Positions 6,428-46,082 of a stretch of DNA of 64,000 nt are shown here, in pieces. The notes beneath the pieces were generated by a model. It had not been told where the DNA came from and did not search any database. It saw only the letters and a program-made list of their open reading frames with translations. The stretch is from Acidobacteriota bacterium (GTDB lineage: Bacteria > Acidobacteriota > Terriglobia > 20CM-2-55-15), in assembly GCA_022821145.1 (NCBI GenBank), contig JAJEEE010000037.1, positions 1 to 64,000 on the forward strand, in the 5' to 3' direction. The position numbers and the translations under genes were made by a program. Position 1 is the first letter of the stretch; every line of letters begins with the position of its first letter.

Positions 6428-6434
6428 TGTGCCG

Positions 6435-9603: not shown

Positions 9604-9641
9604 CGATTCCTCCAGAGGATCGTGCTTCGGTGACGGGGACT

Positions 9642-12879: not shown

Positions 12880-12892
12880 GAGACGGAAAGGG

Positions 12893-14019: not shown

Positions 14020-14405
14020 CGGATCTGGAAACCCAGGCGCGGGTTGAACTCCCGGCCGTCGCTGAGCCGCGTCGCGGTGAGCCAGGCGCCGGCCGGACGA
14101 CCGTCCACCATCGGGTGCCCGGTTATGGTGATCTCGGTACCGGGCGAGAAGTCGCTCCTTCGGATCCCGCCCCGCATGAGCGTGCTGGGCCCTTCGGCCT
14201 CGAAACCCCACGTGGTGACCGTGCCGTCCTCGTTGGTCACGTCCACCAGCAGCCACGAATGCGGGTTCGTGTACTGAAACTCCTGGACCACGCCGGTGAC
14301 GGTGATCTCCCGCGAATCGTCGAACATGGCCGTCGAATGGTGCGCCAGGACCGGCAGTGACGCCACGGCCACGGCCGCCGCAACGCCCGTCAGAATCGTT
14401 CTCAT
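14016..14405 (-). CDS. DUF6152-like secreted protein
   Basis: 129 residues. Signal peptide ending PVLA followed by HHSTAMFDD, again giving a predicted His-His mature N-terminus. The core keeps GVVQEFQYTNPHSWLLV, EGPSTLMRGGIRRSDF and PGTEITITGHP. It is the last gene of a four-gene minus-strand operon (15953, 15402, 14418, 14016), 12 bases after the lipoprotein, with a GGAGATGGGGAG leader. Its stop overlaps the convergent X gene by 4 bases. Function unknown. Confidence 0.75.
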   Translation of the reverse strand: MRTILTGVAAAVAVASLPVLAHHSTAMFDDSREITVTGVVQEFQYTNPHSWLLVDVTNEDGTVTTWGFEAEGPSTLMRGGIRRSDFSPGTEITITGHPMVDGRPAGAWLTATRLSDGREFNPRLGFQIR

Positions 14406-14417
14406 CTCCCCATCTCC

Positions 14418-15374: not shown

Positions 15375-15401
15375 CACGTGTGTCTCCCTTGGCGTGTTCA
15401 C

Positions 15402-25723: not shown

Positions 25724-26761
25724 ATGAAACCGACCATCATGGCGATTTCGTTGGCCGCCGGCATGGCGCCGACGGTCTGGGCGCCCCGGACCGAAGCGCA
25801 GGACCGGTCGCTGTACCAGCAGACCGAATACCAGGGACGGGAGATCGGCAACCTCACCGGCGACGTCTATTACGCGCGGCAGGACGACTACCTCAGCGTG
25901 TTCATGGTGACGTCGGAGGGCATCGTCCTGGTCGAGCCGGTCGGGACCGACATGGCGAACTGGCTGAAGGGCGAGTTGGCCGCGCGCTTCGACGTTCCGG
26001 TCAAGTACGTCATCTACAGCCACTATCACTGGGACCACGGGTCCGGAGGCGCCGTCTGGACCGATACCGCGCGCCTGATCGGACACGAGAGCATGCTCGG
26101 GGCCCTGGCGATGCCGCCGGAGGGAACGCCGCTCCCCGATAACGCGCAGGGCGACGACGCCAACGACGACGGGCGCCTCGAGCGAGGCGAGGCGTCCGGC
26201 AACGTCCAGCGGTTGTTCGACCTCTACGACGCCGACGGCGACGGCGTCTTGACGGGCGCCGAGGTCACGCGCGGACCGCTGGCCCACGTCGTCCCGCCGG
26301 ACCTGACCTATACCGACACGGTCTACATCAACCTGGGGGGCAAGCGGGTCGAGGTCATCCCGATTCCGACGCGTCACGCCCCGGACAACACCGTCGTCCG
26401 GTTCGTCGACGGGACCAACGTGATGTTCGCCTCCGACTGGATTACCGTCAACCGCACGCCGTTCGGGTTCGACGTGGCCCGCGACGACGAGATCGAGAAG
26501 GTGCGGCAGGTCGAGGCGATGGACTTCGAGCACTTCGTCTGCAGCCACGGCCAACTCGGCACGAAGGCCGACGTCACCGCCAACCGCGTCTACCGGGAGG
26601 CCGTTCGAGACCGTGTTCGGGAGGCGATCGCCGAAGGGCGGAGCCTGGAAGAGACCCAGGCCACGGTGACGATGGACGACTATTCGGACTGGGAGTTCTT
26701 TCCGCAGCAGAGCCCGCTCAACGTGACCGGGGCATATCGGGCGTTCACGGAAACTCCGTAG
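25724..26761 (+). CDS. Secreted MBL-fold hydrolase with EF-hand pair insert
   Basis: 345 residues with a signal peptide ending near TEAQ. The MBL metal motif HYHWDH (100-105) is intact, and His218 (TRHAPD) and Asp238 (ASDW) are the expected further ligands. Between them an insert (about 140-185) carries two canonical 12-residue EF-hand loops: DANDDGRLERGE (145-156) and DADGDGVLTGAE (169-180). Calcium binding is therefore likely, and could tie folding or activity to the extracellular medium. Substrate unknown. It is upstream of a tannase gene by 61 bases and divergent from the TonB receptor. Confidence 0.85.
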   Translation: MKPTIMAISLAAGMAPTVWAPRTEAQDRSLYQQTEYQGREIGNLTGDVYYARQDDYLSVFMVTSEGIVLVEPVGTDMANWLKGELAARFDVPVKYVIYSHYHWDHGSGGAVWTDTARLIGHESMLGALAMPPEGTPLPDNAQGDDANDDGRLERGEASGNVQRLFDLYDADGDGVLTGAEVTRGPLAHVVPPDLTYTDTVYINLGGKRVEVIPIPTRHAPDNTVVRFVDGTNVMFASDWITVNRTPFGFDVARDDEIEKVRQVEAMDFEHFVCSHGQLGTKADVTANRVYREAVRDRVREAIAEGRSLEETQATVTMDDYSDWEFFPQQSPLNVTGAYRAFTETP

Positions 26762-26822: not shown

Positions 26823-28466
26823 ATGACCGCGTTCAGCGTCATCCTATGGACCCTGACCGCCGGGCTCCACGCGGCGGTGGAACCGGGACGCGCGCCCGCG
26901 CAGTCCCCGAACATGGAAACCTGCCAGGCATTGGCCGCGATGCCCAACCTGACGATCACGCTGGCCCGCCTGGAGCCCGCCGCCGGCTTCGTTCCCGAGC
27001 ACTGCTACATCCAGGGGACGATTTCGGGCAGCATCCGGTTCCACATGCAACTGCCGCTGCCCGCGGACTGGAACGGCCGGCTGCTCAATATCGGCGACGG
27101 GGGGAAGGACGGAGACCTGGACTTCGCCGACGCGCGGCTCGAACAAGGCTACGCGGTCGCGAACTCCAACACGGGCCACGACGTCGGCGCCGAGCCCGGC
27201 GCGTGGTTCGGCTTCGACAACCCGCAGGCCCTGGTGGACTTCGGCTACCGGGCCGTCCACCTCACGGCCAACGCATCGAAGACCGTCGTCGGCGCCTACT
27301 ACGGCCGCGCGCCGCGCTACGCCTATTTCGAGGGTTGCTCGACCGGCGGCCGGCAGGGCCTGATGGAAGCGCAGCGCTTCCCATCGGACTTCGACGGGAT
27401 CGTGTCCGAAGCGCCCGTCCTGGACTACCAGGCGATCAACGCGGGTCACATCTGGATGACCCAACGTCTGTACGCGGCCGATTTCGCGGGCAACCTGGCC
27501 TTCGACGCCGACGGCGACGGTTCCCAGGAAAGCCTGACGAAGTGGGAAGTACTTCGCGACACCGTGTCGGCGGTTTGCGATCCCGTCGACGGCATCGAGG
27601 ACGGCCTGATCGAAGATCCGCGGATGTGTCCGTTCGATCCCGAGCGGCACCTGGCCGACCGGATGTGCGAACCCGGCGTCGACGGGGACGCATGCTTCAC
27701 GGACCGGCAGATCCAGGCCGTCCGCGACCTCTACCGCGGGCCGTACGACAGCGCGGGCGTCCAGATCATGAGGGGCTTGCCTCCGGGATCCGAGTACGGA
27801 TGGGCCCGGAACGTCATTCCTCACGCCGGTAACGATCGGATCCCGTTCAAGCTGATCTATGCGCTCGACCACATGAACTTCCTGTTTTTCGAGGAATCCC
27901 CGGGGCTCCCCATGTCGACGCCGAACGATCTGAACGCAACCCCCGACAAGCGGGCGGTGCTGCCCGAGTACGCCTGGTGGGAGTTCGACATCGACGATTT
28001 CACCGGCGGGCGCGCCGACGCGATGAGGTCGATCACGGACGCGACGGATCCCGACCTCTCCCGGTTCCTGAATCGCGAAGGCGGTAAGCTGTTGCTTTAC
28101 CACGGATGGGGCGACTCCGAAGTCCAGTTGGGACCCACGCTGGACTACTACGACGCCATGGTCGCGGCCACCTTCGACGGGGACATGGAAGCGGCGCGCG
28201 ACAAGGCGCGTTTCTTCATGGTTCCCGGACTGGGGCATTGCGGCGGCGGTCCGGGCCCCGGCGAGTGGGATCGGCTCGCTCCGCTCGTCGACTGGGTCGA
28301 GACCGGCGCCGCTCCGGACTTCATCGTCGGCGAACGCCGCGTCGACGGCGTCCTGGAGAATCAACGCCGGATATGCGCCTACCCGGAAGCGTCCCGGTAC
28401 ATCGGCCCGGCCGGCGGCGAGAACGATCCGGCGAACTGGAGGGCCGACAACTTCGAATGCCGCTGA
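26823..28466 (+). CDS. Tannase/feruloyl esterase family protein
   Basis: 547 residues; ATG with GGAGGACAGC upstream; signal peptide ending near APAQ. The catalytic Ser173 lies in GCSTGGRQG, Asp431 in HGWGDSEV and His472 in GLGHCGGG. Cys172 and Cys473 next to the Ser and His give the CS-D-HC disulfide that defines this family. CDPVDGIEDGLIEDP is the lid-domain calcium-binding signature. It is secreted and expected to hydrolyse phenolic esters such as galloyl or feruloyl esters. Same strand as the MBL-EF gene and the SMP-30-like gene. Confidence 0.9.
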   Translation: MTAFSVILWTLTAGLHAAVEPGRAPAQSPNMETCQALAAMPNLTITLARLEPAAGFVPEHCYIQGTISGSIRFHMQLPLPADWNGRLLNIGDGGKDGDLDFADARLEQGYAVANSNTGHDVGAEPGAWFGFDNPQALVDFGYRAVHLTANASKTVVGAYYGRAPRYAYFEGCSTGGRQGLMEAQRFPSDFDGIVSEAPVLDYQAINAGHIWMTQRLYAADFAGNLAFDADGDGSQESLTKWEVLRDTVSAVCDPVDGIEDGLIEDPRMCPFDPERHLADRMCEPGVDGDACFTDRQIQAVRDLYRGPYDSAGVQIMRGLPPGSEYGWARNVIPHAGNDRIPFKLIYALDHMNFLFFEESPGLPMSTPNDLNATPDKRAVLPEYAWWEFDIDDFTGGRADAMRSITDATDPDLSRFLNREGGKLLLYHGWGDSEVQLGPTLDYYDAMVAATFDGDMEAARDKARFFMVPGLGHCGGGPGPGEWDRLAPLVDWVETGAAPDFIVGERRVDGVLENQRRICAYPEASRYIGPAGGENDPANWRADNFECR

Positions 28467-29512: not shown

Positions 29513-30268
29513 TCAGCGGTACGCCGAGCACGGCGTCGGGTTCCAGCCGCCCTCGTCGGCCTCCTGCTTGAAGTGCGTGCTTTCCATGAACCGCCGCGTC
29601 ATGTAGACCGGGTCGTCGTAGAACGTCGTCAGGATGAGCCACCGGTCGCCGTTGGGCTCGTCGAACGCGAAGAAGTACTCCGTCATCACGGTCTGATCGC
29701 TGTAGGGGACGCCGTTCCGCCGGATGTACCCCATGCGCAAGTGGTCGGTCACCACCTTCAGCCGGCCGCTGGGGACCGAGTTCGGCTCCCGGCCGCCTTC
29801 GGCCCGGATCCACTCGGCCACCGAGTGCCCCTGCCAGGCGGGCTCCTCGGGCGGTTCGACGGACGGATCGAAGTGGAACAGCCGCGTCTGGGAGCCCGCG
29901 TCGGTGTCGATGCGCAACGTGTCGGCGTCCTCCCAGGTGATGTGCAGCCGTCCCGGAATGCGCATCACGCCGCCCGCGCCGTACCACCGGCACTCCTCGC
30001 CGGCGGCCTCGTCCGCGGCCGGGTCCCACGCGTCGGCGACCGCGATGGCGGCCGGCGTCATGGCCGTGCTCTCGTAGTCACCCCTCTCGGGCACCACCAT
30101 CCGGTGGCGCCAACCCTCGGTCACCACCGACACCCAGTACCCGGTCAGGTCGAGCGGCGGATCGACGCTGGCCTGGGCCCGGGCCGGCCGCGGCGCGACG
30201 GCGAGCAGACCCGCGGCGACGGCCAGGCTTGCCGCAAGACGAATGGAATGGCGGAACGCGCGATTCAT
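29513..30268 (-). CDS. X-family secreted protein (cassette 2)
   Basis: 251 residues from the ATG at 30268, which has GGGAGGAGG upstream; an ATG at 30289 that overlaps the previous stop (ATGA) is a fair alternative. A signal peptide ends near ARAQ. Shared blocks with 13291 and 34219 are DLTGYWVSVVTEGWRHRM, MRIPGRLHITWEDADTLRID, SQTRLFHFD, GYIRRNGVPYSDQTVMTEY and GGWNPTPC. It is the last gene of cassette 2, which lacks a DUF6152 member. Function unknown. Confidence 0.75.
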   Translation of the reverse strand: MNRAFRHSIRLAASLAVAAGLLAVAPRPARAQASVDPPLDLTGYWVSVVTEGWRHRMVVPERGDYESTAMTPAAIAVADAWDPAADEAAGEECRWYGAGGVMRIPGRLHITWEDADTLRIDTDAGSQTRLFHFDPSVEPPEEPAWQGHSVAEWIRAEGGREPNSVPSGRLKVVTDHLRMGYIRRNGVPYSDQTVMTEYFFAFDEPNGDRWLILTTFYDDPVYMTRRFMESTHFKQEADEGGWNPTPCSAYR

Positions 30269-30285
30269 GGGCGTGGCCTCCTCCC

Positions 30286-31365
30286 TCATTGCGCCGGCTC
30301 CAGGCTTCGGTAGACCGCGGTCACGAAGTCGTCGGCCGTCCAGTCCCCCGACTCGTTCGCGTAAAGGCCGTCATAGGCCTTCGTCGGCCGCTCCGCCAGG
30401 ACCTGCTCCAGCGACCATCCGCGGTCGATCATCTCCTGGACGTTGTTCCGGACGATGGTCACCATGTCCCGGTAGTAGCCGACGTCGGCCGAGTCGCTGA
30501 GACGCCCGCGTCCGGGGACCACCATCGTGCCGCCCTCGGTCCGGAACTCGGGAATCGCGATCTCGAGGACGTAGTTCAGGGCGTCGATCACGCCGTCGAT
30601 GCTGCCCCCGTGCTCCAGGTCGATGATCGGATACGTCGTCTGCGAGAAGAAGTCGCCGGTCACGATCACGTCCGAGCGCGGGAAGTACACCAGCGTGTCC
30701 GCGTCCGAGGTGGCTTGCGGCATGTGGATCATACGCACGCCCTCGCCGTTGAAGTGATGGCTGATCTTGTAGCTCGACCCGTAGTACGTGTCCGTCGGGT
30801 ACGCCAGATCGACCTCACCCCTCTCGACCAGGCGGAACAGGACTTCCTCGCGGGCGTAAATGCTGGCGCCGACGCCGGCGTCGGCGATGGCGCCGGCGAC
30901 GTTGCCGCCGACGAAGGTCACGCCCGAGGCGCGGATCGCGGCGTTCCCCCCGACGCGATCCTCCGCGGCGCTGGTGTTGATGATGTAGCGCACGGGCTTT
31001 GGCGGCTGGTAGCCGTCCCGATAGGCCAGCACCGACAGCCGGCCTTCGGCGCCCCACCGCAGCGGGTCGGGATCGCGGCCCATCAACTGCAACTCCTGCG
31101 TTTCGCGGATCGCGGCCAGAACCGCGCCGGCCATGTCTGCCGACCCCGAATCGACAAGCAGCACGCCGTCGTCACCGATCGACGCGGCGACGTTGCCGCC
31201 GCCTCCGACGAGCATGTAGATCGGTCCGCGCACGCGGACCACGTCGATCGCGTCGTCCTGGGCCTCGACCCGGGGCGCGCCGGCGAGCGCGGCCGCCGTG
31301 AGAATCCCGACGGAAACGCACGTTACGGTTTTCGGACGACGCGGCTTCAACTCCTGTTTCGTCAT
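30286..31365 (-). CDS. MBL-like secreted protein, active site lost (cassette 2)
   Basis: 359 residues; ATG at 31365 with GGAG six bases upstream; signal peptide ending VEAQ. The fold is recognisable from DDGVLLVDSGSADM, KPVRYIIN, VGGNAAIRASGVTFVGGN, SDVIVTGDFF and YPIIDLEHGGSIDGVIDAL. The metal motif is degenerate: SAAEDR (132-137) stands where the paralog at 35391 has HYHPDH. The second-site His is also gone (QATSDAD), as is the last one (GRGR). Only the two Asp remain, so hydrolysis is unlikely; a binding or structural role is more plausible. Confidence 0.78.
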   Translation of the reverse strand: MTKQELKPRRPKTVTCVSVGILTAAALAGAPRVEAQDDAIDVVRVRGPIYMLVGGGGNVAASIGDDGVLLVDSGSADMAGAVLAAIRETQELQLMGRDPDPLRWGAEGRLSVLAYRDGYQPPKPVRYIINTSAAEDRVGGNAAIRASGVTFVGGNVAGAIADAGVGASIYAREEVLFRLVERGEVDLAYPTDTYYGSSYKISHHFNGEGVRMIHMPQATSDADTLVYFPRSDVIVTGDFFSQTTYPIIDLEHGGSIDGVIDALNYVLEIAIPEFRTEGGTMVVPGRGRLSDSADVGYYRDMVTIVRNNVQEMIDRGWSLEQVLAERPTKAYDGLYANESGDWTADDFVTAVYRSLEPAQ

Positions 31366-31425
31366 GCGATTCTCCAGATCCTTTCCGCCCATGCAGCACG
31401 AAGCGCCATGCGACGGAAGCGCGTC

Positions 31426-32277
31426 TCAGCGCCCCGGAATCAACTCCTGGATTCGCTGCTTGAACTCCGGATACATGGTTTCCGCGCCCCCCCGCGTGGC
31501 CTCGATCGGGAGGTTGTACACGTCGGCGGCTTCACGGGCGTACGGGTTCTCCCCCGGGAAGTAGTGGGGCACGAACCCGGGCTCCCGGTTGACCTCGGTC
31601 ACCACCGTGCAGGGATAGGGCGGGACCTGCTGGTTGGGCCGCCACTGGAACTCCGACGTCCGTATCAGCGGCTCCTCCAGGTAGACCGGATCGTAGGTGA
31701 TCGTCGTCCACGTGATCACGTCCTCGTTCCGGATCAGGTATTCGACCACCTCGGCGCGGTCGCTCCTAGGCAGCCCGTTGCGGCGAATGTAGTCTTCCTT
31801 GAGGTGCGTCGTGTGGATCCGCAGCACGTCGCCGATCCATTGACCCGTGGAGAACCCGGCCCAGTTGTGCGCCTCGTTGGGGCCGGGATGCGGACGCCCG
31901 TCCATGTAGATCGGGCGGTCGACCGAGCGGAGCCATTCGAAGTGGTAGGCGATCAGGTTCCTGGACGCCGGATCGATCTCCGGCGTGATGAACGGCTGCG
32001 ACGGTCCCCGCGTGATGTAGTCCACGCCGTGAGGCCGGCACTGCCACTCCGCCAGCGACTGGATCGACGAGTCCCACAACTCGGCCCGCGCCCGAGCGGC
32101 GTCGTTGATGGGCATGCCCATGAACTCACCCAGCTCCGGCCCGCTGACCCGCTCGTCGCGGTCCTCGTCCATCACCGGAGCCCACTGCCCCGAGATGTCC
32201 ATCTGCGCCGCGGCCGGCCGGGCCGCGAGCGCCGCGGCTACAAGCGCGACGATGATCGGTACGGTCTTCACCCTCAT
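31426..32277 (-). CDS. A-domain secreted protein (cassette 2)
   Basis: 283 residues from the ATG at 32277; signal peptide ending PAAAQ. It matches the N-terminal half of the fusion at 10930: EWQCRPHGVDYITRGPS, AYHFEWLRSVDRPIYMDGR, FSTGQWIGDVLRIHTTHLK, DYIRRNGLPRSDRAEVVEY and TMYPEFKQRI. An EF-hand-like acidic run (DEDRDERVSGPE) follows the signal peptide. It is first in cassette 2, 60 bases before the MBL-like gene. Function unknown. Confidence 0.75.
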   Translation of the reverse strand: MRVKTVPIIVALVAAALAARPAAAQMDISGQWAPVMDEDRDERVSGPELGEFMGMPINDAARARAELWDSSIQSLAEWQCRPHGVDYITRGPSQPFITPEIDPASRNLIAYHFEWLRSVDRPIYMDGRPHPGPNEAHNWAGFSTGQWIGDVLRIHTTHLKEDYIRRNGLPRSDRAEVVEYLIRNEDVITWTTITYDPVYLEEPLIRTSEFQWRPNQQVPPYPCTVVTEVNREPGFVPHYFPGENPYAREAADVYNLPIEATRGGAETMYPEFKQRIQELIPGR

Positions 32278-32388
32278 GTGGATCCGCCCCCTCGATTGAA
32301 CGTTCACGGCAGTTCGGTTAGGGATTTATACACCGCGATGACGGACAACTCCAAGCGTTGCGAAAAGGCGCGGCGGCGCGGCGGCAAA

Positions 32389-32417
32389 TTGACTCCGTTC
32401 CGTGCCGGTGCTAGAAG
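32389..32417 (+). promoter_or_regulatory. Promoter of DoxX-like gene
   Basis: TTGACT (32389-32394), 17-base spacer, TAGAAG (32412-32417), seven bases before the ATG at 32425, so the mRNA would be nearly leaderless. The GGTGCTAG at the -10 matches the promoter at 10846. Confidence 0.45.
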
Positions 32418-32424
32418 GACTGCG

Positions 32425-33744
32425 ATGGGCGGGGAGAGCCAAAGGACACGGCCCGACCCGGGCGTCGAGGCCCAGCGGTGGCGCCTCCCGACCCGGATCG
32501 GCTTCCGTTTCTGCTTCGCCTACCTCGGTCTGTACGTCCTGGCGACGCGGATCTCGGGCGGCCTGTTCCTGCTACCGGACCGCGCGTTCAGCAGCTTCGG
32601 GACGCTGCCGCCCGCGCGCGAGATCACCTTCTGGGTGGCGGAACGCGTGTTCGGCATGACGGGGCCGCTCCCCTACACCGGGAACAGTTGGGATGCGCGC
32701 TTCTTCTGGGTCCAGGCGTTCCTGGTCCTCGTCCTGGCTTCGGGCGCGACCGCCATGTGGTCGCTGCTGGACCGCCGCCGCGCGAACTACGTGACGCTCC
32801 ACAAGTGGTTCCGCGTGTTCGTCCGCCTGGCGATCGCCTCACAGATGTTCGAGTACGGCGTCACGAAGATCATCCCCGCCCAGTTCCCGTTCCCGTCGCT
32901 GATCACGCTGGTCACGCCCGTGGGCGGCGTGTCCATGCAGGGACTGTTCTGGACGTTCGTCGGCGCCTCGCCGACGTACCAGATCCTGACCGGGGTCGTG
33001 GAGGTGGCGGCGGGAATATTGCTGATCGTTCCCCGCACGGCCACGCTGGGCGCCATGGTCGTCCTGGCCAGCATGATGCAGGTGTTCGGTTTCAACATGC
33101 TGTACGACGTGGGCGTGAAGATGATCTCGTTCCACCTAGTCCTGATGACCGCGTTCCTGCTCGCGCCCGAGTCGCTTCGGTTGTGGACCTTCTTCTTCGG
33201 GAAACACCCCACGCCGGCCGCCGCGCATCCGCCGTTTTTCCGCTCGCGCCGCGCCCACGCCGCCGCCGTCGGCGCTCAACTCCTGTTCGGCGCGTACGCG
33301 ATCGCGGTGTACGGAAACATCACCTGGGCCTATTGGAACCAGGCCGGCGGCGGAAGCCCCCGGTCGCCTCTCTACGGCGTCTGGGACGTGGAACGGCTGT
33401 CGATCGACGGCGAGGCGCGGCCGGCGGCCGTCAACGACTACGACCGCCGGTGGCGGCGGGTCATCTTCGACGAACCCGGCGCGATGGTCTTCCAACGCAT
33501 CGACGATTCCTTCGCCCGGTACGGGGCCACCATCGATACGGCCCGCAACATGCTGTCGCTGACGAAGGGCGACAGCCGCACGTGGCGGTCGGAGTTCGCG
33601 TTTCGGCGGTCCGGCGACGACGGGCTGGTGCTGGAGGGCGAGATGGACGGCTACGAGATCGGAATCGAGCTGCGCCTGGTCCGGCGCGACACGTTCCAGC
33701 TCCTCAACAGCCACTTCCGGTGGGTGCGGCCGCCGGATCCGTAA
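32425..33744 (+). CDS. DoxX-like multi-pass membrane protein
   Basis: 439 residues. At least six membrane helices cover about residues 25-315 (FCFAYLGLYVLATRISGGLF, AFLVLVLASGATAMWSLL, FVRLAIASQMFEYGVTKIIP, ILTGVVEVAAGILLIVPRTA, MVVLASMMQVFGFNMLYDVG). The block EYGVTKI...FPFPSL and the later GVVEVAAGILL are DoxX/SURF4-like. The last 110 residues form a soluble strand-rich domain (GVWDVERLSIDG). It stands alone on the plus strand between cassettes 2 and 3. Role unknown; DoxX proteins are often linked to respiration or redox stress. Confidence 0.65.
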   Translation: MGGESQRTRPDPGVEAQRWRLPTRIGFRFCFAYLGLYVLATRISGGLFLLPDRAFSSFGTLPPAREITFWVAERVFGMTGPLPYTGNSWDARFFWVQAFLVLVLASGATAMWSLLDRRRANYVTLHKWFRVFVRLAIASQMFEYGVTKIIPAQFPFPSLITLVTPVGGVSMQGLFWTFVGASPTYQILTGVVEVAAGILLIVPRTATLGAMVVLASMMQVFGFNMLYDVGVKMISFHLVLMTAFLLAPESLRLWTFFFGKHPTPAAAHPPFFRSRRAHAAAVGAQLLFGAYAIAVYGNITWAYWNQAGGGSPRSPLYGVWDVERLSIDGEARPAAVNDYDRRWRRVIFDEPGAMVFQRIDDSFARYGATIDTARNMLSLTKGDSRTWRSEFAFRRSGDDGLVLEGEMDGYEIGIELRLVRRDTFQLLNSHFRWVRPPDP

Positions 33745-33745
33745 G

Positions 33746-34222
33746 CTATCGCCGCTCGTACACCACGGTCGACGCGACTTCCCGGCCGTCGGCCAGCCGC
33801 TCCCGCGTGAAGGTCGTCAACGTGTCCCCGTCCGGCGAGACCGTCGTCCGCGCCCGGGCGGCGGGCGCGCCGTCCACCTTGATGACGACCTCGTAGGTCT
33901 GCTCGTCGACCCATCGGTAGGCGTTCGTCAGGACGTAGTCGACCCCCTGGACGGCGTAGTCCCGGCCGTCGAACCGGCCGGTCCATTCCATGCGGACCAC
34001 GCCGCCGCGCTCGCCGACCAGCTCGTAACGGACCCGGACGCCGTCGCCGTGGGGCTCGATCCAGCAGGTCGTTCGCTTGTATTGCGAAGGGTTCGATTCG
34101 GACGCCCGGGTGTTCAACTCCCAGGTCCCGAACAGGATCTCGGCGTCCTGCGCTGCCAGGGCGGCGGCGCATGCGAGAACGCCGGCCACCCCGCCGAGCG
34201 TCCGGACTGCGAAACGGGTCAA
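33746..34222 (-). CDS. Small secreted lipocalin-like protein
   Basis: 158 residues from a TTG start that overlaps the stop of the X gene (TTGA), with no good ribosome site, so translation is probably coupled. The signal peptide TRFAVRTLGGVAGVLACAAALAAQ is convincing. The mature part starts FGTWELNTRAS and continues as strands (YAVQGVDYVLTNAYRWVD, YEVVIKVDGAPAAR, TTVSPDGDTLTTFTRERL), a barrel-like pattern. It is the last gene of cassette 3 and converges on the DoxX-like gene with a one-base gap. Function unknown. Confidence 0.65.
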   Translation of the reverse strand: MTRFAVRTLGGVAGVLACAAALAAQDAEILFGTWELNTRASESNPSQYKRTTCWIEPHGDGVRVRYELVGERGGVVRMEWTGRFDGRDYAVQGVDYVLTNAYRWVDEQTYEVVIKVDGAPAARARTTVSPDGDTLTTFTRERLADGREVASTVVYERR

Positions 34223-34998
34223 TACTCGGTGCAGGGCGTGGGATTCCAAAGGGATCCGTCGGGCAGCTTCTTGAACGTCAGCGTCCGGACGAAGTGCGCG
34301 GTCAGGTACTGCGGGTCGTCGACGTAGGTCTGCACCAGCAGGTACTCGTCGCCGTTGGGTTCGGTCAGGCGGACGAAGAACTCGGTCATGTGGGCGTCGC
34401 CGCTGTAGGGAATGCCGTTCTTCAGGTAGTAGCCCGGCAGCATGTGGGTCGTCTCCGCGCGCATGTTGCCGCCCATGGGCACCTGCGCCAGCGAAACGCC
34501 GGCGCCCCGGCCGGAGAATCCGCCGTAGACCTCCCACTCGGCCACGGAGTGCCCTTGCAGGGAGGGCTCGTCCGGCGGGTCCACGTCGCCGAAATGGAAC
34601 AGGCGCGTCTGCGTTCCGGCGTCCAGGTCGATGCGCAGCGTGTTGTCGTTCTCCCAATCGATCCTCAAGTGGGTGGGCAGACGCATGACGCCGGCGGCGC
34701 CGTACGCCATCAGGCACCGGCCATCGGGCGGCGGCGCCTCGCCCGTCCAGGCGTCGGCCAGACGCTGTCCTTCCGCGTTCAGCGGGACCAGATCGTAGTC
34801 GCCGCGCTGTCCGGTGAACATGCGGTGGCGCCAGTCCTCGTTGACCAGGGCGGTCCAGTCGCCGACCAGATCGATCGGGGCTGCGTCGCGGGCCGTCTGC
34901 GGGGGCGGGGCCGGCCCGCCGCGCTGCGCCCATGCCGGCCCGGCGGCGAGGAGGGCCGCGAACAGCGCCGGCCACAACTGCCGGCGCGTCCTAGTCAA
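34219..34998 (-). CDS. X-family secreted protein (cassette 3)
   Basis: 259 residues; its start overlaps the DUF6152 stop by 8 bases. Signal peptide ending PAWAQ, then the blocks shared with 13291 and 29513: DLVGDWTALVNEDWRHRM, MRLPTHLRIDWENDNTLRID, TQTRLFHFGD, GYYLKNGIPYSGDAHMTEF and GSLWNPTPC. A Gly-rich loop (GGFSGRGAG) replaces a shorter loop in the paralogs. Function unknown. Translation of the following small gene seems coupled to it. Confidence 0.75.
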   Translation of the reverse strand: MTRTRRQLWPALFAALLAAGPAWAQRGGPAPPPQTARDAAPIDLVGDWTALVNEDWRHRMFTGQRGDYDLVPLNAEGQRLADAWTGEAPPPDGRCLMAYGAAGVMRLPTHLRIDWENDNTLRIDLDAGTQTRLFHFGDVDPPDEPSLQGHSVAEWEVYGGFSGRGAGVSLAQVPMGGNMRAETTHMLPGYYLKNGIPYSGDAHMTEFFVRLTEPNGDEYLLVQTYVDDPQYLTAHFVRTLTFKKLPDGSLWNPTPCTEY

Positions 34999-35386
34999 AG
35001 TCCTCGCCCTGCTGGCCCCATCCGTATCCGTCTTCGGTGCGCAGGAGCGTCCGCATGCGGATCCGGTGGTCGGCGGGGTTGCGGCCCGGATTGCCGGTGA
35101 TGACCACGACGTCGCCGGGCCGGAGCGAGGAACGGCTCACGCCCTGACGCCCCAACTGGCCGGCGCCGCCCCACTCCACGCCCCAACGGTGCACCTCGCC
35201 GTCCTCGTCGGGCGCCATCACGTGAACCCAGGAGTGGGGGTTGCGGAACATGAACTGGACGATGCGGCCCTCGATCTCGACCAGCGCGTCTTCGTCGTAG
35301 GTCGCCGTGAAGGAATGGTGCGCGAAGGCGGTCGCCGCGAACATCGCGACCGCCGCGAGCACGGGTACACACACACTTCGTTTCAT
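34991..35386 (-). CDS. DUF6152-like secreted protein (cassette 3)
   Basis: 131 residues from the ATG at 35386 (AGGGAG upstream). Signal peptide ending TAFA directly before HHSFTATYDED, giving a predicted His-His mature N-terminus. It is very close to the cassette 1 member: EGRIVQFMFRNPHSWVHVM, WGVEWGGAGQLGRQGV and LRPGDVVVITGNPGRNP. It lies 4 bases after the MBL-like gene and overlaps the X gene, so tight co-expression is expected. Function unknown. Confidence 0.78.
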   Translation of the reverse strand: MKRSVCVPVLAAVAMFAATAFAHHSFTATYDEDALVEIEGRIVQFMFRNPHSWVHVMAPDEDGEVHRWGVEWGGAGQLGRQGVSRSSLRPGDVVVITGNPGRNPADHRIRMRTLLRTEDGYGWGQQGEDFD

Positions 35387-35390
35387 GACG

Positions 35391-36527
35391 TCATCTCCCT
35401 GGGCCCCCGCTGTAGGGCGGGAGGCCTCGGTATTCCTCCGGAGCCGGCGTCTCGGTGAGGTTCCGATACACCGCCTCCACGAACATCTCGGTGGTCCATG
35501 GACCGTCCTCGGCGCCGAACCGCGGATCGTAGCCCAGCGTCGGACGCGCCGCCTGCACTTCATCCAACGACATCCCGTCGTCGATCATGATCTGCATGTG
35601 GTCGCGAATGATCGTCAGCATGTCCCGGTAATAACCCAGGTCGGCGGAGTCCGAAATCCGGCCGCTGCCGGGAACGATCAGGGTGCCGCCCTCGGTCCGG
35701 AACGAGGGGATGGCCAGTTCCAGCATGTAGTTCAGGGCGTCGATGACGCCGTTGATGTGCCCGCCGCGCTCCAGGTCGATGACCGGATACGTCGCGGCCG
35801 AATACGTGTCGCCGGCCACGATCACGTCCGATCGGGTGAAGTGGACGATGCTGTCGCCGTCGGTATGCGCCCCCGGCATGTGAATCAGGCGAATGCCCTC
35901 GCCGTTGAAGAAATGGCTGAGCTTGTAGTACTCGCCGTAGTACGTATCCGTCGGCAATGCACGGAACGGCGCCTCGGCGTCCACCATGTGGAAGAGCGTG
36001 TTCTCGTGGGCGAGGATCGCGGCGCCTTCGTCGGCGTCCTGAATGCTGCCCGACACGTTCCCGCCGGCGAACGTGACGCCGGCGTTGGCCAAGGTCTCGT
36101 TGCCGCCGGTGTGATCCGGGTGATAGTGGGTGTTCAGGATGTACCGGATCGGCTTCGGCGGCGGCCGCGTGTAGATGGGCGTGGTCTGGAGCGCCTCGGC
36201 GCCCCCGCGAAGCCCCGGCGGCGGCAGGCTGCCGAAGTCGAGCATGCGCTGAAGCTCCTGGATCTCGATCAGGAGCGCCTCGGCCATCGACTCGGCGCCC
36301 GAATCCACCAGCAGCACGCCGTCGGGGCCCACGGAGGCGACGACGTTGCCGCCCGCGCCCGCGAAGAGCCAGATGTTGCCCTGAACGTGGACGGCCTCGA
36401 CGCCGCCCTGCCGGAGAACCGGCGGTTCGCCTCGACCCGCGGCCGCAAACACGGTTCCCGACGCCGTCAATGCCGCCAGTCCGAGAATCGACCTCGCAAC
36501 GCCGCGCATGTCCGTCACGCGGCGCAT
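35391..36527 (-). CDS. MBL-fold secreted hydrolase-like protein (cassette 3)
   Basis: 378 residues from the ATG at 36527, which touches the stop of the A-domain gene and has GGAG eight bases upstream. Signal peptide to about residue 29. It is the only one of the three cassette MBL proteins with the metal motif intact: HYHPDH (134-139), His221 (GAHTDGD) and Asp240 (VAGD). The last expected His is replaced (VPGSGR, 286-290). Further shared blocks are GVLLVDSGAESM and PVIDLERGGHINGVIDAL. It could be a hydrolase with one incomplete metal site; substrate unknown. Confidence 0.8.
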   Translation of the reverse strand: MRRVTDMRGVARSILGLAALTASGTVFAAAGRGEPPVLRQGGVEAVHVQGNIWLFAGAGGNVVASVGPDGVLLVDSGAESMAEALLIEIQELQRMLDFGSLPPPGLRGGAEALQTTPIYTRPPPKPIRYILNTHYHPDHTGGNETLANAGVTFAGGNVSGSIQDADEGAAILAHENTLFHMVDAEAPFRALPTDTYYGEYYKLSHFFNGEGIRLIHMPGAHTDGDSIVHFTRSDVIVAGDTYSAATYPVIDLERGGHINGVIDALNYMLELAIPSFRTEGGTLIVPGSGRISDSADLGYYRDMLTIIRDHMQIMIDDGMSLDEVQAARPTLGYDPRFGAEDGPWTTEMFVEAVYRNLTETPAPEEYRGLPPYSGGPGR

Positions 36528-37457
36528 CTACCGCGCTCCCGACACGGGCGCGTTCTGTTGCGCCTCGAACGTCGGCGTGGCTTCGTCCAACCGGCGCGCT
36601 TCCCACCCGTTCTCGCGGATCATGGCGCGGAACTCGGGATACATCGAGATCGCGCCCTGGCGGGCCGCCTCGGCCGGGATTCCGAGGTGCTCCTCGTACT
36701 CCCCGAGGTGGGGATTCTCGCCCGGGAACCAGCTCGGCACGTAGCCCCGGGGCCGGTCCACCTCGGTGACGACCGTGCACGGATACGGCGGCACCTGGTC
36801 GTGAGGCCGCCGTATGTACTCGGTGGTGCGAATCAGCGGTTCCGTGAGGTAGTCGGGATCGTAGACGACCTTGGTCCAGGACAGGTAGTCCTCGTTGCCC
36901 ACCGACCGCAGGATCAGGTATTCGGTCATCGTGATGCGGTCGCTCTGCGGCGGGCCGTTCCGCCGGATGTAGTCTTCCTTCACATGCGTCGTCGTGACCT
37001 TCAGGACGTCGCCGACCCATTCCCCGGTGGAAAAGCCGGCCCAGGTGTGGGGCGCGTGCTCGGACGGATGCGAGCGGCCGTCCATCCAGATCGGGTTGTC
37101 GATCGACCGCAGCCACTCGGTGTGGAAGGCGACGGTCTCGCGCGACACCGGATCCACTTCCTTCCAGATCTTCAGGGCCGACGGGCCGCGCGTGATATAG
37201 GCGCCCGAATGCGGCCGGCACTGCCATTCCGGCAGCGACTGGATCGACGCGTCCCATGTGTCCGACCGCCGGTAACCCGCCTCGTTGAGCGGCAGTCCGC
37301 CGGTGTCGCCGTTGTACGGGTTGTGGAAGTTGTCCTCGCTGCGGACCACGCGCCATTCCCCGGACAGGTCCGTCTGGGCGTAAGCCGCCCCGCCGAGGCA
37401 TGCCGCGGCCGTCAGGAGGAGGGAAACCTGAATGCCGGCTCGAGTGCGGTTCGTCAT
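36528..37457 (-). CDS. A-domain secreted protein (cassette 3)
   Basis: 309 residues; ATG with GGAGGG about nine bases upstream; signal peptide ending AAYAQ. Same blocks as in the fusion at 10930 and in 31426: EWQCRPHSGAYITRGPSA, AFHTEWLRSIDNPIWMDGR, FSTGEWVGDVLKVTTTHVK, DYIRRNGPPQSDRITMTEY and SMYPEFRAMI. It leads the complete cassette (A, MBL, DUF6152, X, small lipocalin-like). Function unknown. The strongly conserved Arg-Asn-Gly and Ser-Asp positions suggest a binding pocket rather than a structural role only. Confidence 0.75.
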   Translation of the reverse strand: MTNRTRAGIQVSLLLTAAACLGGAAYAQTDLSGEWRVVRSEDNFHNPYNGDTGGLPLNEAGYRRSDTWDASIQSLPEWQCRPHSGAYITRGPSALKIWKEVDPVSRETVAFHTEWLRSIDNPIWMDGRSHPSEHAPHTWAGFSTGEWVGDVLKVTTTHVKEDYIRRNGPPQSDRITMTEYLILRSVGNEDYLSWTKVVYDPDYLTEPLIRTTEYIRRPHDQVPPYPCTVVTEVDRPRGYVPSWFPGENPHLGEYEEHLGIPAEAARQGAISMYPEFRAMIRENGWEARRLDEATPTFEAQQNAPVSGAR

Positions 37458-37536: not shown

Positions 37537-38421
37537 CTAAGCGATTTGTCCGGTGGATGCCGGATGCACCTGGACGTCCATGGCGCCCACGCCTTCGATC
37601 GACGCCCGGATACGGTCACCGGGCGCGAGCGGGCTCACGCCTTCCGGCGTGCCCGTCATGATGATGTCGCCCGGATACAGCGTGTAGAACGCCGAGGCGA
37701 ACTCGATCAATCGCTCGACGCCCATCGTCATGTGCCGCGTGTTCGAGTCCTGGCGCACGACGCCGTTGACCGAGACCGAGAGATCCAGGTTGCCCGGATC
37801 CGGTATCTCGTCCCGGGTCACCAGCCAGGGGCCCACCACCGCGTAGGTGTCGGGCGACTTCCGAAGACAGCGTTCCTCGGGTCCCCGGATCGTGAGGTCC
37901 AGGCCGATCGTGTACCCGGCCACGTATTCCAGCGCGTCCCCGGCCGCAACGTTGTTCGCGGGTTTGCCGATGACGACCGCCAGTTCCACCTCGTGATCGT
38001 TGCGCCGGTCGAGCTTGCGGAGGCGAATGCCTTCGCCCGGCCCGGCCAGCGCGCTCCGCGCCTTGAGGAAGACACCCATCTTGTGAATCGGCGCCGTGTG
38101 CGCCGCGACGTTGTGGTGGATCCCGGCGTCGGCCTTGACTTCATCCACGTGCTTCACGTAGTTCAACGGCGCGCCGATGATCTTGCCCGGGTTGGCCACC
38201 GGGCTCAGCAGCCTCAGCCCTTCCAGCTCATGGACCTCGGCTTCCGGCGCGATCGACCGTGCGCGCTCGCACACCGCATCCAGGTTCTCGATGAGCACGT
38301 CCACCGCCGGCAACGGATAACGGTAGGCCGGCAACACGTCCAGAGCGGCGCTGACATCCCGCACGCGCGTGTCTTCGACAAGCCCCAACCGCGAATCATC
38401 TCCGAATCGGCATAAGCGCAT
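37537..38421 (-). CDS. Fumarylacetoacetate hydrolase family protein
   Basis: 294 residues, cytoplasmic. The C-terminal FAH domain has IIGAPLNYVKHVDE, the metal ligands Glu144 and Glu146 in DHEVELAVVIGK, Asp175 in TIGLDLT and the block GDIIMTGTPEGVSPLAPGD. The family includes maleyl- or fumarylpyruvate hydrolases, oxaloacetate decarboxylases and isomerases of aromatic meta/gentisate pathways. With gentisate dioxygenase and maleate isomerase in the same window, a maleylpyruvate hydrolase role is plausible but unproven. First of a likely operon by position: 22 bases before the enolase-superfamily gene. Confidence 0.85.
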   Translation of the reverse strand: MRLCRFGDDSRLGLVEDTRVRDVSAALDVLPAYRYPLPAVDVLIENLDAVCERARSIAPEAEVHELEGLRLLSPVANPGKIIGAPLNYVKHVDEVKADAGIHHNVAAHTAPIHKMGVFLKARSALAGPGEGIRLRKLDRRNDHEVELAVVIGKPANNVAAGDALEYVAGYTIGLDLTIRGPEERCLRKSPDTYAVVGPWLVTRDEIPDPGNLDLSVSVNGVVRQDSNTRHMTMGVERLIEFASAFYTLYPGDIIMTGTPEGVSPLAPGDRIRASIEGVGAMDVQVHPASTGQIA

Positions 38422-38443
38422 AAAGCGTCCTTCCCTCCTTGCA

Positions 38444-39526
38444 TCAAGCGGCCTGGTACATTCTCCGAACGGCGTCCTCCAGGACCAGCCCGTGTCCCGG
38501 CGCGTCCCGCGGCGCCATGCGGCCGTCTTCCCGAACCTCGGGCCAACCTTCGAACAGGGGTTCGATCAGGGGGAATTCCTCCAGCCACGTGACGGCGCCG
38601 GCCGCGGCGGCGGCATGGACGAACAGCCCCGGCAGGAAGTGGGGCGCGACGCCGACGTCGAACGCCTCCGCCAGCCGCGCCACCTCGACGACCGGAGTCA
38701 GGCCGCCCGCCATGGCCAGGTCGGGTTGGATCACGCTCACGAGGCGTTCCGACAGGAACGGCAGGAAGGCCGCCCGCCCTTGCAGATGTTCCCCCGCCGC
38801 CACCGGCGCGCCGCCGGACGAGGCCAGTGCGCGATAGCCTTCGATCGCATCGGCCGGGAGCGGTTCCTCCACGAACAGCACGCCGTGCTCCCGCGCGGCG
38901 CCCAACAAGCGGCGCGCCGCGACCAGGTCGCATTTCTCGTTGGCGTCCAGCATCATGTCGACGCCGTCGGGGAGGGCCGAACGGACGGCTTCCATCACGC
39001 GGATGTCCTCGCCGCCGCGTCCCCGCGCGCGGGGCTTGACCGCTCCCAGACCCCGGGCGGCATGCGCCGCGGCCGTCTCGGCGGCTGCTTCCGGCGATTG
39101 GACGGCGGTGAAGCCGCCGCTCCCGTACACGGGCACGTGCCGCGCGGCGCCCCCCAGCGCCTCGGCGAGCGGGATTCCCCGCCGATTGGACTCCAGGTCC
39201 CAGGCGGCGACGTCGACGGCGGCCAGCGCCACCATGTTCGGCCCCGGCCCCGTCCGGTTGAACCCGGCCGCGATCCGGCGCCAAAGGGCCGGCGGCGGAA
39301 CCCGTTCCTGGCCGCGCACGTGACGATCCAACTGGCCGCGGGCGGCTTCGAGTACGACGGCGCCGCCTTGGCCTCCGATCACGTAGGTGAAACCCCACCC
39401 GACGGCGCCGTCGGAGTCCGCCAGGTCCACGACGACCACGTCGACGGCGGACACGCCGGAGCCGCCCACGGGCTTGTCCAGCCGATAGTGCAGAAGGACG
39501 GCTTCGGCCCGATCGATCGTCGTCAA
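38444..39526 (-). CDS. Mandelate racemase/muconate lactonizing-type enzyme
   Basis: 360 residues from a TTG that overlaps the stop of the upstream gene (TTGA). An enolase-superfamily barrel is clear: metal ligands Asp194 (MLDANE), Glu220 (FVEEPL) and Glu246 (AAGEHLQG), and a late His296 (APHFLPG). At the second strand the usual KxK is KPR (164-166), so the second acid/base is altered. The substrate is probably a hydroxy- or keto-carboxylate, but the exact reaction (racemase, dehydratase, lactonase) cannot be told. It sits between FAH-family and maleate isomerase-like genes, implying one pathway. Confidence 0.8.
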   Translation of the reverse strand: MTTIDRAEAVLLHYRLDKPVGGSGVSAVDVVVVDLADSDGAVGWGFTYVIGGQGGAVVLEAARGQLDRHVRGQERVPPPALWRRIAAGFNRTGPGPNMVALAAVDVAAWDLESNRRGIPLAEALGGAARHVPVYGSGGFTAVQSPEAAAETAAAHAARGLGAVKPRARGRGGEDIRVMEAVRSALPDGVDMMLDANEKCDLVAARRLLGAAREHGVLFVEEPLPADAIEGYRALASSGGAPVAAGEHLQGRAAFLPFLSERLVSVIQPDLAMAGGLTPVVEVARLAEAFDVGVAPHFLPGLFVHAAAAAGAVTWLEEFPLIEPLFEGWPEVREDGRMAPRDAPGHGLVLEDAVRRMYQAA

Positions 39527-40290
39527 GCCGATGCTCCGACCCGTTCCGAAAGGAGCGCTCCGGCCCCGGGGGCGTGCGGCGCCAGGTTCAGGCTCCGCAG
39601 CATCTGGTAGACCGTGCATACGGACGCCGAAACCACCGGCAGCCCGCATTCCGCCTCGACCACGGGGACGGCCGGCAGAGAGGGCATCTGGACGCAGGCG
39701 GAGAGGACGAGGGCGTCGGCGCCATCCAGGTTCAGGTCCTTGTAGATATCGACCAACGCCATCGGATCCTGTCGCCCCACCTCCAGGTTGTCGGCGATCT
39801 CGAGCGAGATGCTGTCGATGACCTCGACGCCTTCGGCCTCGATGTACTCGGTGACGAGGCGGGTCAACGGCCGGAGATACGGCGTCACGATCGAAACCCG
39901 TCGCGCGCCCAACGCCTTCAACCCGTCGACGAGCGCGCCGGCGCTGGTGACGACCGGCGCCGGATGGCCTTCCCTCTCCGTCACGGCGCGCAGGCGCGCC
40001 TCGGACTGGCAGTGGTAGCCCCGGCCCATGGTCATGATCGCCACCAGGCAGGCATAGCCCAGGACGTCCACGTCGGCGTCGGCCAGTTCGGCGGCGCAAC
40101 GGTCCGACTCGGCGTCCATGGCCTCGAGCTCCGCCTTGGTCACGCTCTTCATGCGCATGCGCGCCGAGTGGAACGTGAAACGCTCCGGCTCGACCGCTTC
40201 CCGGGCCCGGAGCATCGCGGGGATCTCGGTCTCCATCGTCGTGTTCGAGCTCGGCACGATCTGCCCGATGCGATACGTTCTCGTCGTCAT
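39523..40290 (-). CDS. Maleate isomerase / Asp-Glu racemase family protein
   Basis: 255 residues; ATG with GGGGAGAG upstream; cytoplasmic. Two catalytic cysteines are visible, Cys81 (GYACLVAIMTMG) and Cys199 (LSACVQMPSL), with Asn16 in PSSNTTMETE. This is the arrangement of maleate cis-trans isomerase and arylmalonate decarboxylase. Maleate isomerase converts maleate to fumarate without cofactor. It is transcribed first, followed by the enolase-superfamily and FAH genes in one tight operon. Decarboxylase activity is the main alternative. Confidence 0.83.
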   Translation of the reverse strand: MTTRTYRIGQIVPSSNTTMETEIPAMLRAREAVEPERFTFHSARMRMKSVTKAELEAMDAESDRCAAELADADVDVLGYACLVAIMTMGRGYHCQSEARLRAVTEREGHPAPVVTSAGALVDGLKALGARRVSIVTPYLRPLTRLVTEYIEAEGVEVIDSISLEIADNLEVGRQDPMALVDIYKDLNLDGADALVLSACVQMPSLPAVPVVEAECGLPVVSASVCTVYQMLRSLNLAPHAPGAGALLSERVGASA

Positions 40291-40312
40291 GGCGTGGCTC
40301 TCCCCGGGACGT

Positions 40313-41233
40313 TTACGGCGGCGTTCGATCCTTGTGCCTCGCTTGCTCGAAATCCGGCCGTTTCGTCCCGTCCGACAATTCTAAGTCGTCACGGGTGTTT
40401 CCGGGTCTCTTACGTTCCAACCAGACCCGTTTCGGGAACTGCGCGTAGCCGGCAACCACGTGGCGCACGTCGTACCGGGGATCCAATTCCGGCTTCGGCG
40501 CCAGATCCCACAACCATCGCCGCCCCCCTTCCGGCAAATCCACCCCCCGCAGCGATCCGTCCCGGCAGACGACGTCCTCTCCATCGCAATAGAGACGCTC
40601 CAGATCCGATATCAGACACACGTTGCCTGCCAACGAAGCGAGCCAGTCCAGGTGGTCGACGACCAGCCGGCGGGAAAACGCCTTCACCCACCAGGGCGCC
40701 GGACCGTTCTTCTTCCGGGTTGCGTAGCGAACCGGCGCCAACGGAAGCTGGGACAGGATATTCGCCGAAACGACCAGGTCGACGTCTTCTCCCGGAAAGA
40801 AGTCCGGCTTTCGCTCCGGCAACGCCAACCGCCGTCCCCGCTGAGCCATGGCATGCACCTCTTCGACGACTCCGGTGACGTCGGCACATCGAAGACGCAC
40901 GTTCGGATACCGGCGTACCGCCGAACGGACCTGCCGAAGATGCAGAATGTCCACCAGGACGACTTCACGAAAGCGCCGGCTCAACTCGGCGACCGGGATA
41001 TCGAAAAGCGGCCCCGAGCCGATGACGACCGCTTTCCGGTTTCGGGCGCAACGATCCGCGGCCTCGAGCATCAGCGCCCGGCTGCGCTCCACGTGCGGAC
41101 GCCATGCGAGCCGGCAACGCCGCCCCCGGGAATCGAGCTGCCTCAGTCCCCGCGCGTACCCCATGGCCGCCAGGTGGCGGGGAATGGGGTTCGCCAGGTG
41201 ACGGATCCAGTCCCAAGTCGAACCGAATGACAT
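40313..41233 (-). CDS. SAM-dependent methyltransferase-like protein
   Basis: 306 residues from the ATG at 41233; an in-frame start at 41314 is possible. A Rossmann-type start AVVIGSGPLFDIPVAEL followed by a strand ending EVVLVDI and an acidic-ended VRLRCADV looks like SAM-binding motifs I-III. LVVSANILSQLPL matches motif IV. A Lys/Arg-rich patch (TRKKNGPAPWWVK) may bind nucleic acid or phosphate. I do not recognise the subfamily or substrate. It precedes nothing obviously linked; the maleate isomerase operon is downstream by 23 bases. Confidence 0.6.
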   Translation of the reverse strand: MSFGSTWDWIRHLANPIPRHLAAMGYARGLRQLDSRGRRCRLAWRPHVERSRALMLEAADRCARNRKAVVIGSGPLFDIPVAELSRRFREVVLVDILHLRQVRSAVRRYPNVRLRCADVTGVVEEVHAMAQRGRRLALPERKPDFFPGEDVDLVVSANILSQLPLAPVRYATRKKNGPAPWWVKAFSRRLVVDHLDWLASLAGNVCLISDLERLYCDGEDVVCRDGSLRGVDLPEGGRRWLWDLAPKPELDPRYDVRHVVAGYAQFPKRVWLERKRPGNTRDDLELSDGTKRPDFEQARHKDRTPP

Positions 41234-41310
41234 GTCCCGATCGCTCGCAACGCGTCCCGGTTGTCGGAACGACCGCAAGTCCTGCGTCTCCCGTGGAGTT
41301 CGCGAAGGTG

Positions 41311-43209: not shown

Positions 43210-43224
43210 CGGCGGCTTCCTCCG

Positions 43225-44838: not shown

Positions 44839-44865
44839 GGCTGCCTCCTCCATTTCGCCTAAAGG

Positions 44866-45695: not shown

Positions 45696-45707
45696 AGGAA
45701 CGCCGAC

Positions 45708-46082
45708 ATGCGTTTGCAGACCTGGACGATGATCGCGGCGGCCATCGTCATGGCCGCCGTCCCGGCCGCCGGGCACCATGCGCAGTCGGCGGCATTCCAT
45801 ATGGATCGATACGTCGAGATCGAAGGCGTCGTCAGCAACTTCGTCTTCAGGAACCCGCATCCCGTCCTGTACGTCGAGGTGACGGGCGACGACGGAGAGA
45901 TCCAGGTCTGGCAGATCGAATTCGCCCCGGCCACGGTCCTGGCCAAGCGCGGTTGGACGCGGGAGACTTTCGTCGAAGGCGAGGTCATCAGCGCCCGCGG
46001 CCACCCGTCCAAGGTGGAAGGGACGCACGGGATGGCGGCGGGCGCGGACATCACGCGCGCGGCGGGCGAAGTGGTGCGGTAG
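45708..46082 (+). CDS. DUF6152-like secreted protein
   Basis: 124 residues; GAGGAAC ribosome site. Signal peptide ending PAAG followed by HHAQSAAFHMD; cleavage there would again expose His-His. The core keeps EGVVSNFVFRNPHPVLYVEV, FAPATVLAKRGWTRETF and EGEVISARGHPSKVEG. It is the second gene of the reduced cassette and converges on the cytochrome-lectin gene with a four-base gap. Function unknown. Confidence 0.73.
   Translation: MRLQTWTMIAAAIVMAAVPAAGHHAQSAAFHMDRYVEIEGVVSNFVFRNPHPVLYVEVTGDDGEIQVWQIEFAPATVLAKRGWTRETFVEGEVISARGHPSKVEGTHGMAAGADITRAAGEVVR

Follow-up and report, generated by a model that had tools for sequence, protein, structure and literature searches.

What becomes of a metallo-beta-lactamase (MBL) fold once the residues that bind its metals are replaced, and what might keep several such copies in one genome? 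The question is raised by a 64,000-nucleotide stretch of an Acidobacteriota bacterium (the window), positions 1 to 64,000 of contig JAJEEE010000037.1 in assembly GCA_022821145.1 (C51:1-64000 of genome G000; genome 4.18 Mb, 99.3% complete). The window carries three gene sets of one layout, X-MBL-(DUF6152)-Y, where X and Y are distantly homologous (E about 1e-10 to 1e-25). We favour, at a probability of roughly 55%, the reading that in an exported X-MBL-(DUF6152)-Y set the MBL fold is retained to serve X as a partner or a binding domain, its metal site being optional.

The ligands are given below as a string in the order 116, 118, 120, 121, 196, 221, 263, in what we take to be the standard MBL numbering and assignment of Zn1 and Zn2 ligands; an intact site reads HHDHHDH. 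MBL1 (35391-36527, minus strand) reads HHDHHDS. According to translation and alignment it keeps six of the seven ligands: its motifs are NTHYHPDH, AHTDGD, GDTYS and PGSGR, its own His221 and Asp240 correspond to standard His196 and Asp221, and Ser288 stands in the place of His263. MBL2 (30286-31392, minus strand) reads SADRTDR. Its motifs NTSAAEDR, ATSDAD (Thr at 196), GDFFS and PGRGR (Arg at 263) retain two of the seven ligands, five being gone. MBL3 forms the second part of an X3-MBL3 fusion (10930-12879, plus strand; X part about 10930-11830, MBL part about 11860-12879) and reads NSDLTDH, with four of seven ligands gone; its motifs are NTNASSDL, ATTDGD (Thr at 196), GDIYS and PSHGR, in which His263 is retained. 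All three frames are full length and free of stops. The initial annotation had described HYHPDH with His221 and Asp240 and a replaced last His (GSGR) in MBL1, SAAEDR without the second and last His in MBL2, and NASSDL with the last His kept (SHG) in the fusion, with only the Asp positions shared by all. This description holds in translation and alignment, the shared ligands being Asp120 and Asp221, and the Thr at 196 of the fusion is a further loss that it did not include.

As a control for divergence, we took 47 non-ligand positions at which the 54 intact relatives are conserved to 95% or more. MBL1 retains 46 of them, MBL2 44 and MBL3 42, and the comparison of ligand with non-ligand retention gives Fisher p values of 0.24, 0.0003 and 0.011, respectively. 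The loss in MBL2 and MBL3 is specific to the metal site and exceeds general divergence; the lone change of MBL1 at 263 is insignificant on its own.

PF00753 matches MBL1 (2e-14, 54.5 bits) and MBL2 (2e-5, 25.1 bits, gathering score 22.7), and the fusion has no Pfam match. The AlphaFold2 (AF2) model of MBL1 has a mean predicted local distance difference test score (pLDDT) of 77.7, with a core mostly at 90 or more, and Foldseek returns MBL matches for it. The AF2 model of the fusion is confident in both its X and MBL parts (mean pLDDT 84.7, predicted template modelling score 0.86). Both models match solved MBLs and display the alpha-beta-beta-alpha MBL fold. The MBL3 domain model superposes on chlorothalonil dehalogenase (6uxu) with Z 27.4 and a root-mean-square deviation (rmsd) of 2.9 over 267, and on 8d2z with Z 26.2 and an rmsd of 2.6 over 262. 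None of the three proteins carries the complete HxHxDH with His196, Asp221 and His263 of a catalytic MBL hydrolase. A kept fold from which the metal residues are gone, as in a pseudoenzyme, is found in MBL3 by model and motif and in MBL2 by motif and conserved columns, and only in part in MBL1.

Ligand loss extends well beyond the window. After 23 duplicates had been removed, 13 of 174 rows were taken out before tree building (fragments, distant rows, MBL4, which is a distant paralogue in the window, and L216, whose frame is broken in the motif). The tree of the remaining 161 rows (152 ingroup, 9 outgroup) excludes the ligand columns; it comes from a quick search under a simple model and carries long-branch warnings. 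Within the ingroup, 54 sequences are intact and 98 are without at least one ligand. Losses amount to 82 of 152 for H116, 78 for H118, 46 for H196, 27 for D120, 23 for H263, 18 for H121 and 13 for D221. Zn1 is broken and Zn2 kept in 52 sequences, the reverse applies to 8, both sites are broken in 36 and both are kept in 56. As read from the aligned sequences, the Zn1 ligands (116, 118, 196) are lost first. Parsimony places 13, 17, 13, 10, 15, 7 and 12 losses at the seven positions in ligand order, with some regains that are possibly artefacts. The usual replacements are Ser at 116, Asp at 118, Glu at 120, Thr, Ile or Asn at 196 and Arg at 263.

MBL3 falls into a clade of ten rows, nine fusions and one scored as unfused, from several genomes of the same family, with no intact member. 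This clade nests in one of 29 rows, also without an intact member, in which strings like SDDHHDH prevail. Since MBL3 lies within an all-broken clade in which many members keep Zn2, loss on the tree is stepwise, and the stepwise loss proposed by the initial annotation is a fair description. MBL1 and MBL2 share an eleven-row clade (support 92, inner forks 86-100); counterparts of the complete MBL1 set from Gammaproteobacteria carry SLHNTDR or a similar string there. Degeneracy is more frequent among fused MBLs (32 of 36) than among unfused ones (66 of 116; p = 3e-4, not corrected for relatedness).

The recurrence of certain strings raises the possibility that the site has been rebuilt rather than abandoned. 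Repeated conversion to a centre with one metal, or with a metal other than zinc, such as S-x-D-x-D-H together with H196, D221 and H263, with other residues used by even poorer sites, is the strongest rival to a partner or binding role. It is possible above all for the SxDxDH / xDDHHDH class, and as an account of the family we consider it distinctly less probable than the reading given at the outset. Of the sequences that have lost Zn1, 52 retain every Zn2 ligand, the xDDHHDH string occurs in 31 sequences spread over several separate clades, and some clades have gained His and Cys residues. A single zinc suffices for B2 enzymes, and in flavodiiron proteins position 118 is occupied by a carboxylate. 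In contrast, MBL2, the NAHNTDR fusion found elsewhere in the genome and the SLHNTDR class retain almost no ligand, and the ligand positions vary within the ten-row MBL3 clade. We reject a single replacement His site shared by all degenerate forms, as their 45 most conserved positions contain no His.

Another explanation is that redundant duplicates, released from constraint after expansion of the family, are decaying. Ligand replacements do vary inside clades, and MBL2 sits on a long branch (0.59) in a set lacking DUF6152. The remainder of the protein behaves differently. The 59 non-ligand columns of low entropy in the intact set stay low in the degenerate sequences (mean 0.48 bits); the seven ligand columns reach 1.65 bits there, a figure that is circular given how the groups were defined. 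Intact sequences retain on average 99% of the conserved non-ligand positions, and the five sequences that have lost six ligands still retain 90%; whichever number of ligands is gone, the average lies at 90-96%.

Selection was assessed from the ratio of nonsynonymous to synonymous substitution rates (dN/dS). Between the two species of the genus, it is 0.19 for MBL1 and 0.17 for the MBL part of the X3-MBL3 fusion, which indicates purifying selection on both in their broken form. The NAHNTDR fusion on contig C70 gives 0.03 (0.07 for its MBL part alone), the HHDHHGH copy 0.24 and two intact copies 0.20 and 0.29. The values for MBL1, the MBL3 part and the NAHNTDR fusion rest on few amino-acid changes (8, 7 and 3). 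The synonymous rate (dS) between these species is 0.04-0.09 for MBL1, MBL3 and C70 and 0.21-0.38 for C81, C60 and C34 (L066-L069, L072-L077). Among three gammaproteobacterial genomes, dN/dS is 0.09-0.15 for SLHNTDR and 0.04-0.10 for SDH(H/Y)HDS; with RHDR included, these three classes span 0.04-0.18, and the remaining ones, intact or HHDNHDR, 0.09-0.17. The initial annotation had held that motifs scattered among orthologs would point to decay and had proposed an alignment of homologs as a check. Classes of broken site are found repeatedly in different genera and phyla, and purifying selection acts on them. Conserved positions and X genes are kept, dN/dS is low and the classes turn up again in other species and phyla, which makes decay unlikely for MBL1 and MBL3; full-length frames, dN/dS (0.03-0.19 across MBL1, MBL3, the C70 fusion and the gammaproteobacterial classes) and conservation of the classes led us to reject it for these two and the C70 fusion. 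As an account of the family it is very improbable.

We next consider whether a broken MBL could be the non-catalytic partner of a catalytic sister. A search of the own genome with MBL1 returned seven close members of at least 47% identity, two intact and five not. Beyond the window these are the C70 fusion (NAHNTDR), a copy on C60 (HHDHHGH) and the two intact copies, on C81 and C34. A short frame of 296 amino acids holding only the first part of an MBL (NTNDTPHNVGG) was observed at L070 (G000:C89:21715-22062) and on G001:C38; this type is present in both species of the genus. Among the matches listed, 45 of the 61 genomes searched (the own genome among them) show one at E 0.001; for comparison, 94 regions from relatives and 6 from the own genome were fetched. 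A scan of named genomes with a pattern that demands His or Arg at 263, and thus biases that position, yielded 526 coding stretches, of which 79 loci were kept. The 79 loci come from Acidobacteriota, Gammaproteobacteria and one record titled Acidimicrobiia, and the X-MBL-(DUF6152)-Y plan is present there too.

The initial annotation had proposed one catalytic copy with two non-catalytic partners or sensors, an enzyme/pseudoenzyme set in one genome. Part of this stands: intact and broken copies occur together in the own genome and in all five gammaproteobacterial genomes examined (G061-G065), and heteromers of this kind have a eukaryotic precedent in CPSF73 with CPSF100 (PMC4819959). The assignment within the window is not supported in the form proposed. 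MBL1, the best copy there, has lost His263, so that a catalytic copy need not be present in the window. Nor is an intact partner obligatory. G002, which is 98% complete, has only NDDHHDH and SHDHHER in its close family (a third match at 32% identity reads CFEQHGN), and the two close members in G005 (81% complete) are likewise broken. In view of the close family of G002, a set of one enzyme and two pseudoenzymes would be a special case that need not be invoked.

Each MBL has an X of its own as constant neighbour, in most cases together with a Y, and not a sister MBL. Where the flanks are long enough, X adjoins the MBL or is fused to it at 63 of the 66 degenerate loci and at 37 of the 39 intact ones; Y adjoins in 58 of 66 and 33 of 39, and DUF6152 in 37 of 66 and 13 of 39. 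Among the 9 outgroup MBLs, X is present at one and DUF6152 at one. Because the association with X is constant, up to fusion in many species, the gene order points to X rather than a sister MBL as the putative partner. Heteromers of sister MBLs we regard as doubtful.

In X proteins beside degenerate MBLs, residues D126, R128, C80, H137, H158, K160, D200, E206 and C227 have weighted frequencies of 96-100%, and beside intact ones 93-100%; C80 and C227 are a Cys pair. As these residues are equally kept beside broken MBLs, the set seems to keep working without the MBL metal site. The DUF6152 proteins carry H32, H33, H60 and E80 (numbering of the aligned stretch) in 83 of 83 copies (rounded frequency 1.0). 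In those at 34991-35386 (minus strand) and 12893-13291 (plus strand), HHS directly follows an Ala-x-Ala that resembles a signal cleavage site. Cleavage there would leave a His as the first residue of the mature protein, a feature of copper histidine-brace proteins, and DUF6152 may hold a candidate N-terminal metal site. Literature searches returned nothing on DUF6152.

The computations show a kept fold, repeated loss of metal ligands with Zn1 first, and purifying selection on those broken copies that could be measured, in unbroken X-MBL-Y sets. In the reading that we prefer, the MBL subunit would serve X chiefly as a folded partner or as a domain for binding small molecules. Chemistry, if any, would be located elsewhere in the set, with the invariant Asp, Arg, His, Lys and Glu of X and the invariant His-His...His...Glu of DUF6152 as candidates. 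MBL2 and MBL3 would then be non-catalytic members, and MBL1 an intermediate that could still hold one metal at the Zn1 site. Several observations weigh against this reading. Twelve of 47 near-invariant X columns turn variable beside degenerate MBLs. The MBL3 clade has gained a C-x4-C pair (columns 401-406 of alignment A2), present in 90% of its rows and missing from intact relatives, and two invariant His have been gained in a second fusion clade, that of L116 and its relatives. Replacements recur and differ from one position to the next, and could reflect a changed rather than a lost metal site. In similar sets 54 of 152 sequences are intact, so part of the family retains metal chemistry. Finally, no orthologue of MBL2 was found in the one congener compared, whose X2 is cut at a contig end.

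More tentatively still, the MBL could be a plug-in recognition domain. In such an exported system of four parts, X-MBL-DUF6152-Y, in Acidobacteriota and Gammaproteobacteria, an optional di-metal site would have been lost on many branches, Zn1 first, leaving one genome with a spread of pocket types, and the working metal centre would lie in DUF6152, whose mature form would start with two His. We consider this version rather improbable as it stands.

Set 1 (37457-34219, minus strand) consists of X1 (36528-37457, upstream of MBL1), MBL1, the DUF6152 protein (34991-35386; PF19649, 2.8e-25; HHS after the signal peptide) and Y1 (34219-34998). Set 2 (32307-29513, minus strand) lacks a DUF6152 gene and comprises X2 (31426-32307, upstream of MBL2 and about 55-57% identical to X1), MBL2 and Y2 (29513-30289). 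In set 3 (10930-14019, plus strand), the fusion is followed by D3 (12893-13291), a DUF6152-type protein with 51.5% identity to that at 34991-35386, and Y3 (13288-14019). The X, MBL and Y proteins start with a putative export signal, as judged by eye. The X and Y proteins, X1 included, have no match in Pfam or NCBIfam apart from a chance Pfam match of Y3 (E 0.17). X has no PDB sequence match either, and fold searches with the fusion are filled by MBL matches and hardly probe X, which leaves no ground for calling its fold new. G000 contains 57 matches to the X/Y superfamily at E 0.001 or better, most of them outside the seven MBL sets; by sequence, X/Y is a large, putatively exported family without a name in this genome. 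A diverged X-like gene (30% identity) and a DUF6152-like gene (41%) lie at 14019-15401 (minus strand), and a further DUF6152-like gene (35%) at 45696-46079 (plus strand); no family MBL adjoins either location on the same strand.

MBL4 (25724-26761, plus strand), which the initial annotation did not mention, any more than the gene sets or the four further family members elsewhere in the genome, is a canonical HxHxDH MBL whose motifs (HYHWDH ... SHG) are separated by a weak EF-hand-like insert. It stands outside the MBL1-3 family and the gene sets, and a tannase/feruloyl esterase gene (26823-28466) adjoins it. Other genes in the window (3502-9657, 26823-28466 and 37537-44853) encode a flavin adenine dinucleotide (FAD) ring hydroxylase, pyrroloquinoline quinone (PQQ) dehydrogenases, tannase, FAA hydrolase, arylmalonate decarboxylase and carboxylesterase, and a Fic protein is also among the neighbours. 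The genes around the sets suggest breakdown of aromatic or plant-like compounds.

Among known proteins, the best NCBIfam matches of MBL1 and MBL2 are the quinoprotein relay MBLs TIGR04558/TIGR04559, which are SoxH-related. With TIGR04559 scores of 59.1, 52.4 and 27.2 bits for MBL1, MBL2 and MBL3 against a curated cut-off of 280, and cut-offs of 280-300 bits overall, we reject a quinoprotein-relay identity. The PQQ dehydrogenases lie nearby in the window, and no direct operon link between a PQQ gene and the MBL sets was shown. The best PDB profile match, also among the top fold matches, is 8d2z (6.5e-12), a metallo-beta-lactamase superfamily protein of Burkholderia cenocepacia on which literature searches found no paper. 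At the HxHxDH and His263 places it reads HYHAVR and PGRG, and Zn2 ligands are missing there too; unlike most degenerate members, it keeps the Zn1 ligands, at an identity of about 18%. Proteins 6uxu, SdsA1 (2cfz) and Pisa1 (2yhe) share the MBL fold with high structural scores but differ in domain make-up. Chlorothalonil dehalogenase and the alkylsulfatases SdsA1 and Pisa1 are active metalloenzymes.

The nearest functional likeness, in working rather than descent, is to CPSF100 and INTS9, the catalytically inactive MBL-fold partners of the active nucleases CPSF73 and INTS11 (PMC4819959). In those conserved proteins, too, the MBL fold is kept and the HxHxDH ligands are lost, and they serve in a protein complex. 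They belong to eukaryotic RNA processing, whereas the present family is bacterial and exported, with many separate losses, a link to X/Y and no constant intact partner. Literature searches on MBL expansion in Acidobacteria, degenerate HxHxDH and pseudoenzyme metal ligands returned only unrelated, general or beta-lactamase papers. MBL pseudoenzymes are already known, the best described that we found in print being the eukaryotic RNA-processing proteins (PMC4819959); no bacterial exported family of such spread was found in these searches.

The domain name alone is no ground for labelling such genes beta-lactamases or hydrolases. With intact, half-broken and nearly ligand-free forms in the same type of set, the family offers a natural series for the order in which a di-metal site is lost. 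The same series, with several of its forms in one genome, also allows one to ask what the MBL fold does without its metal site.

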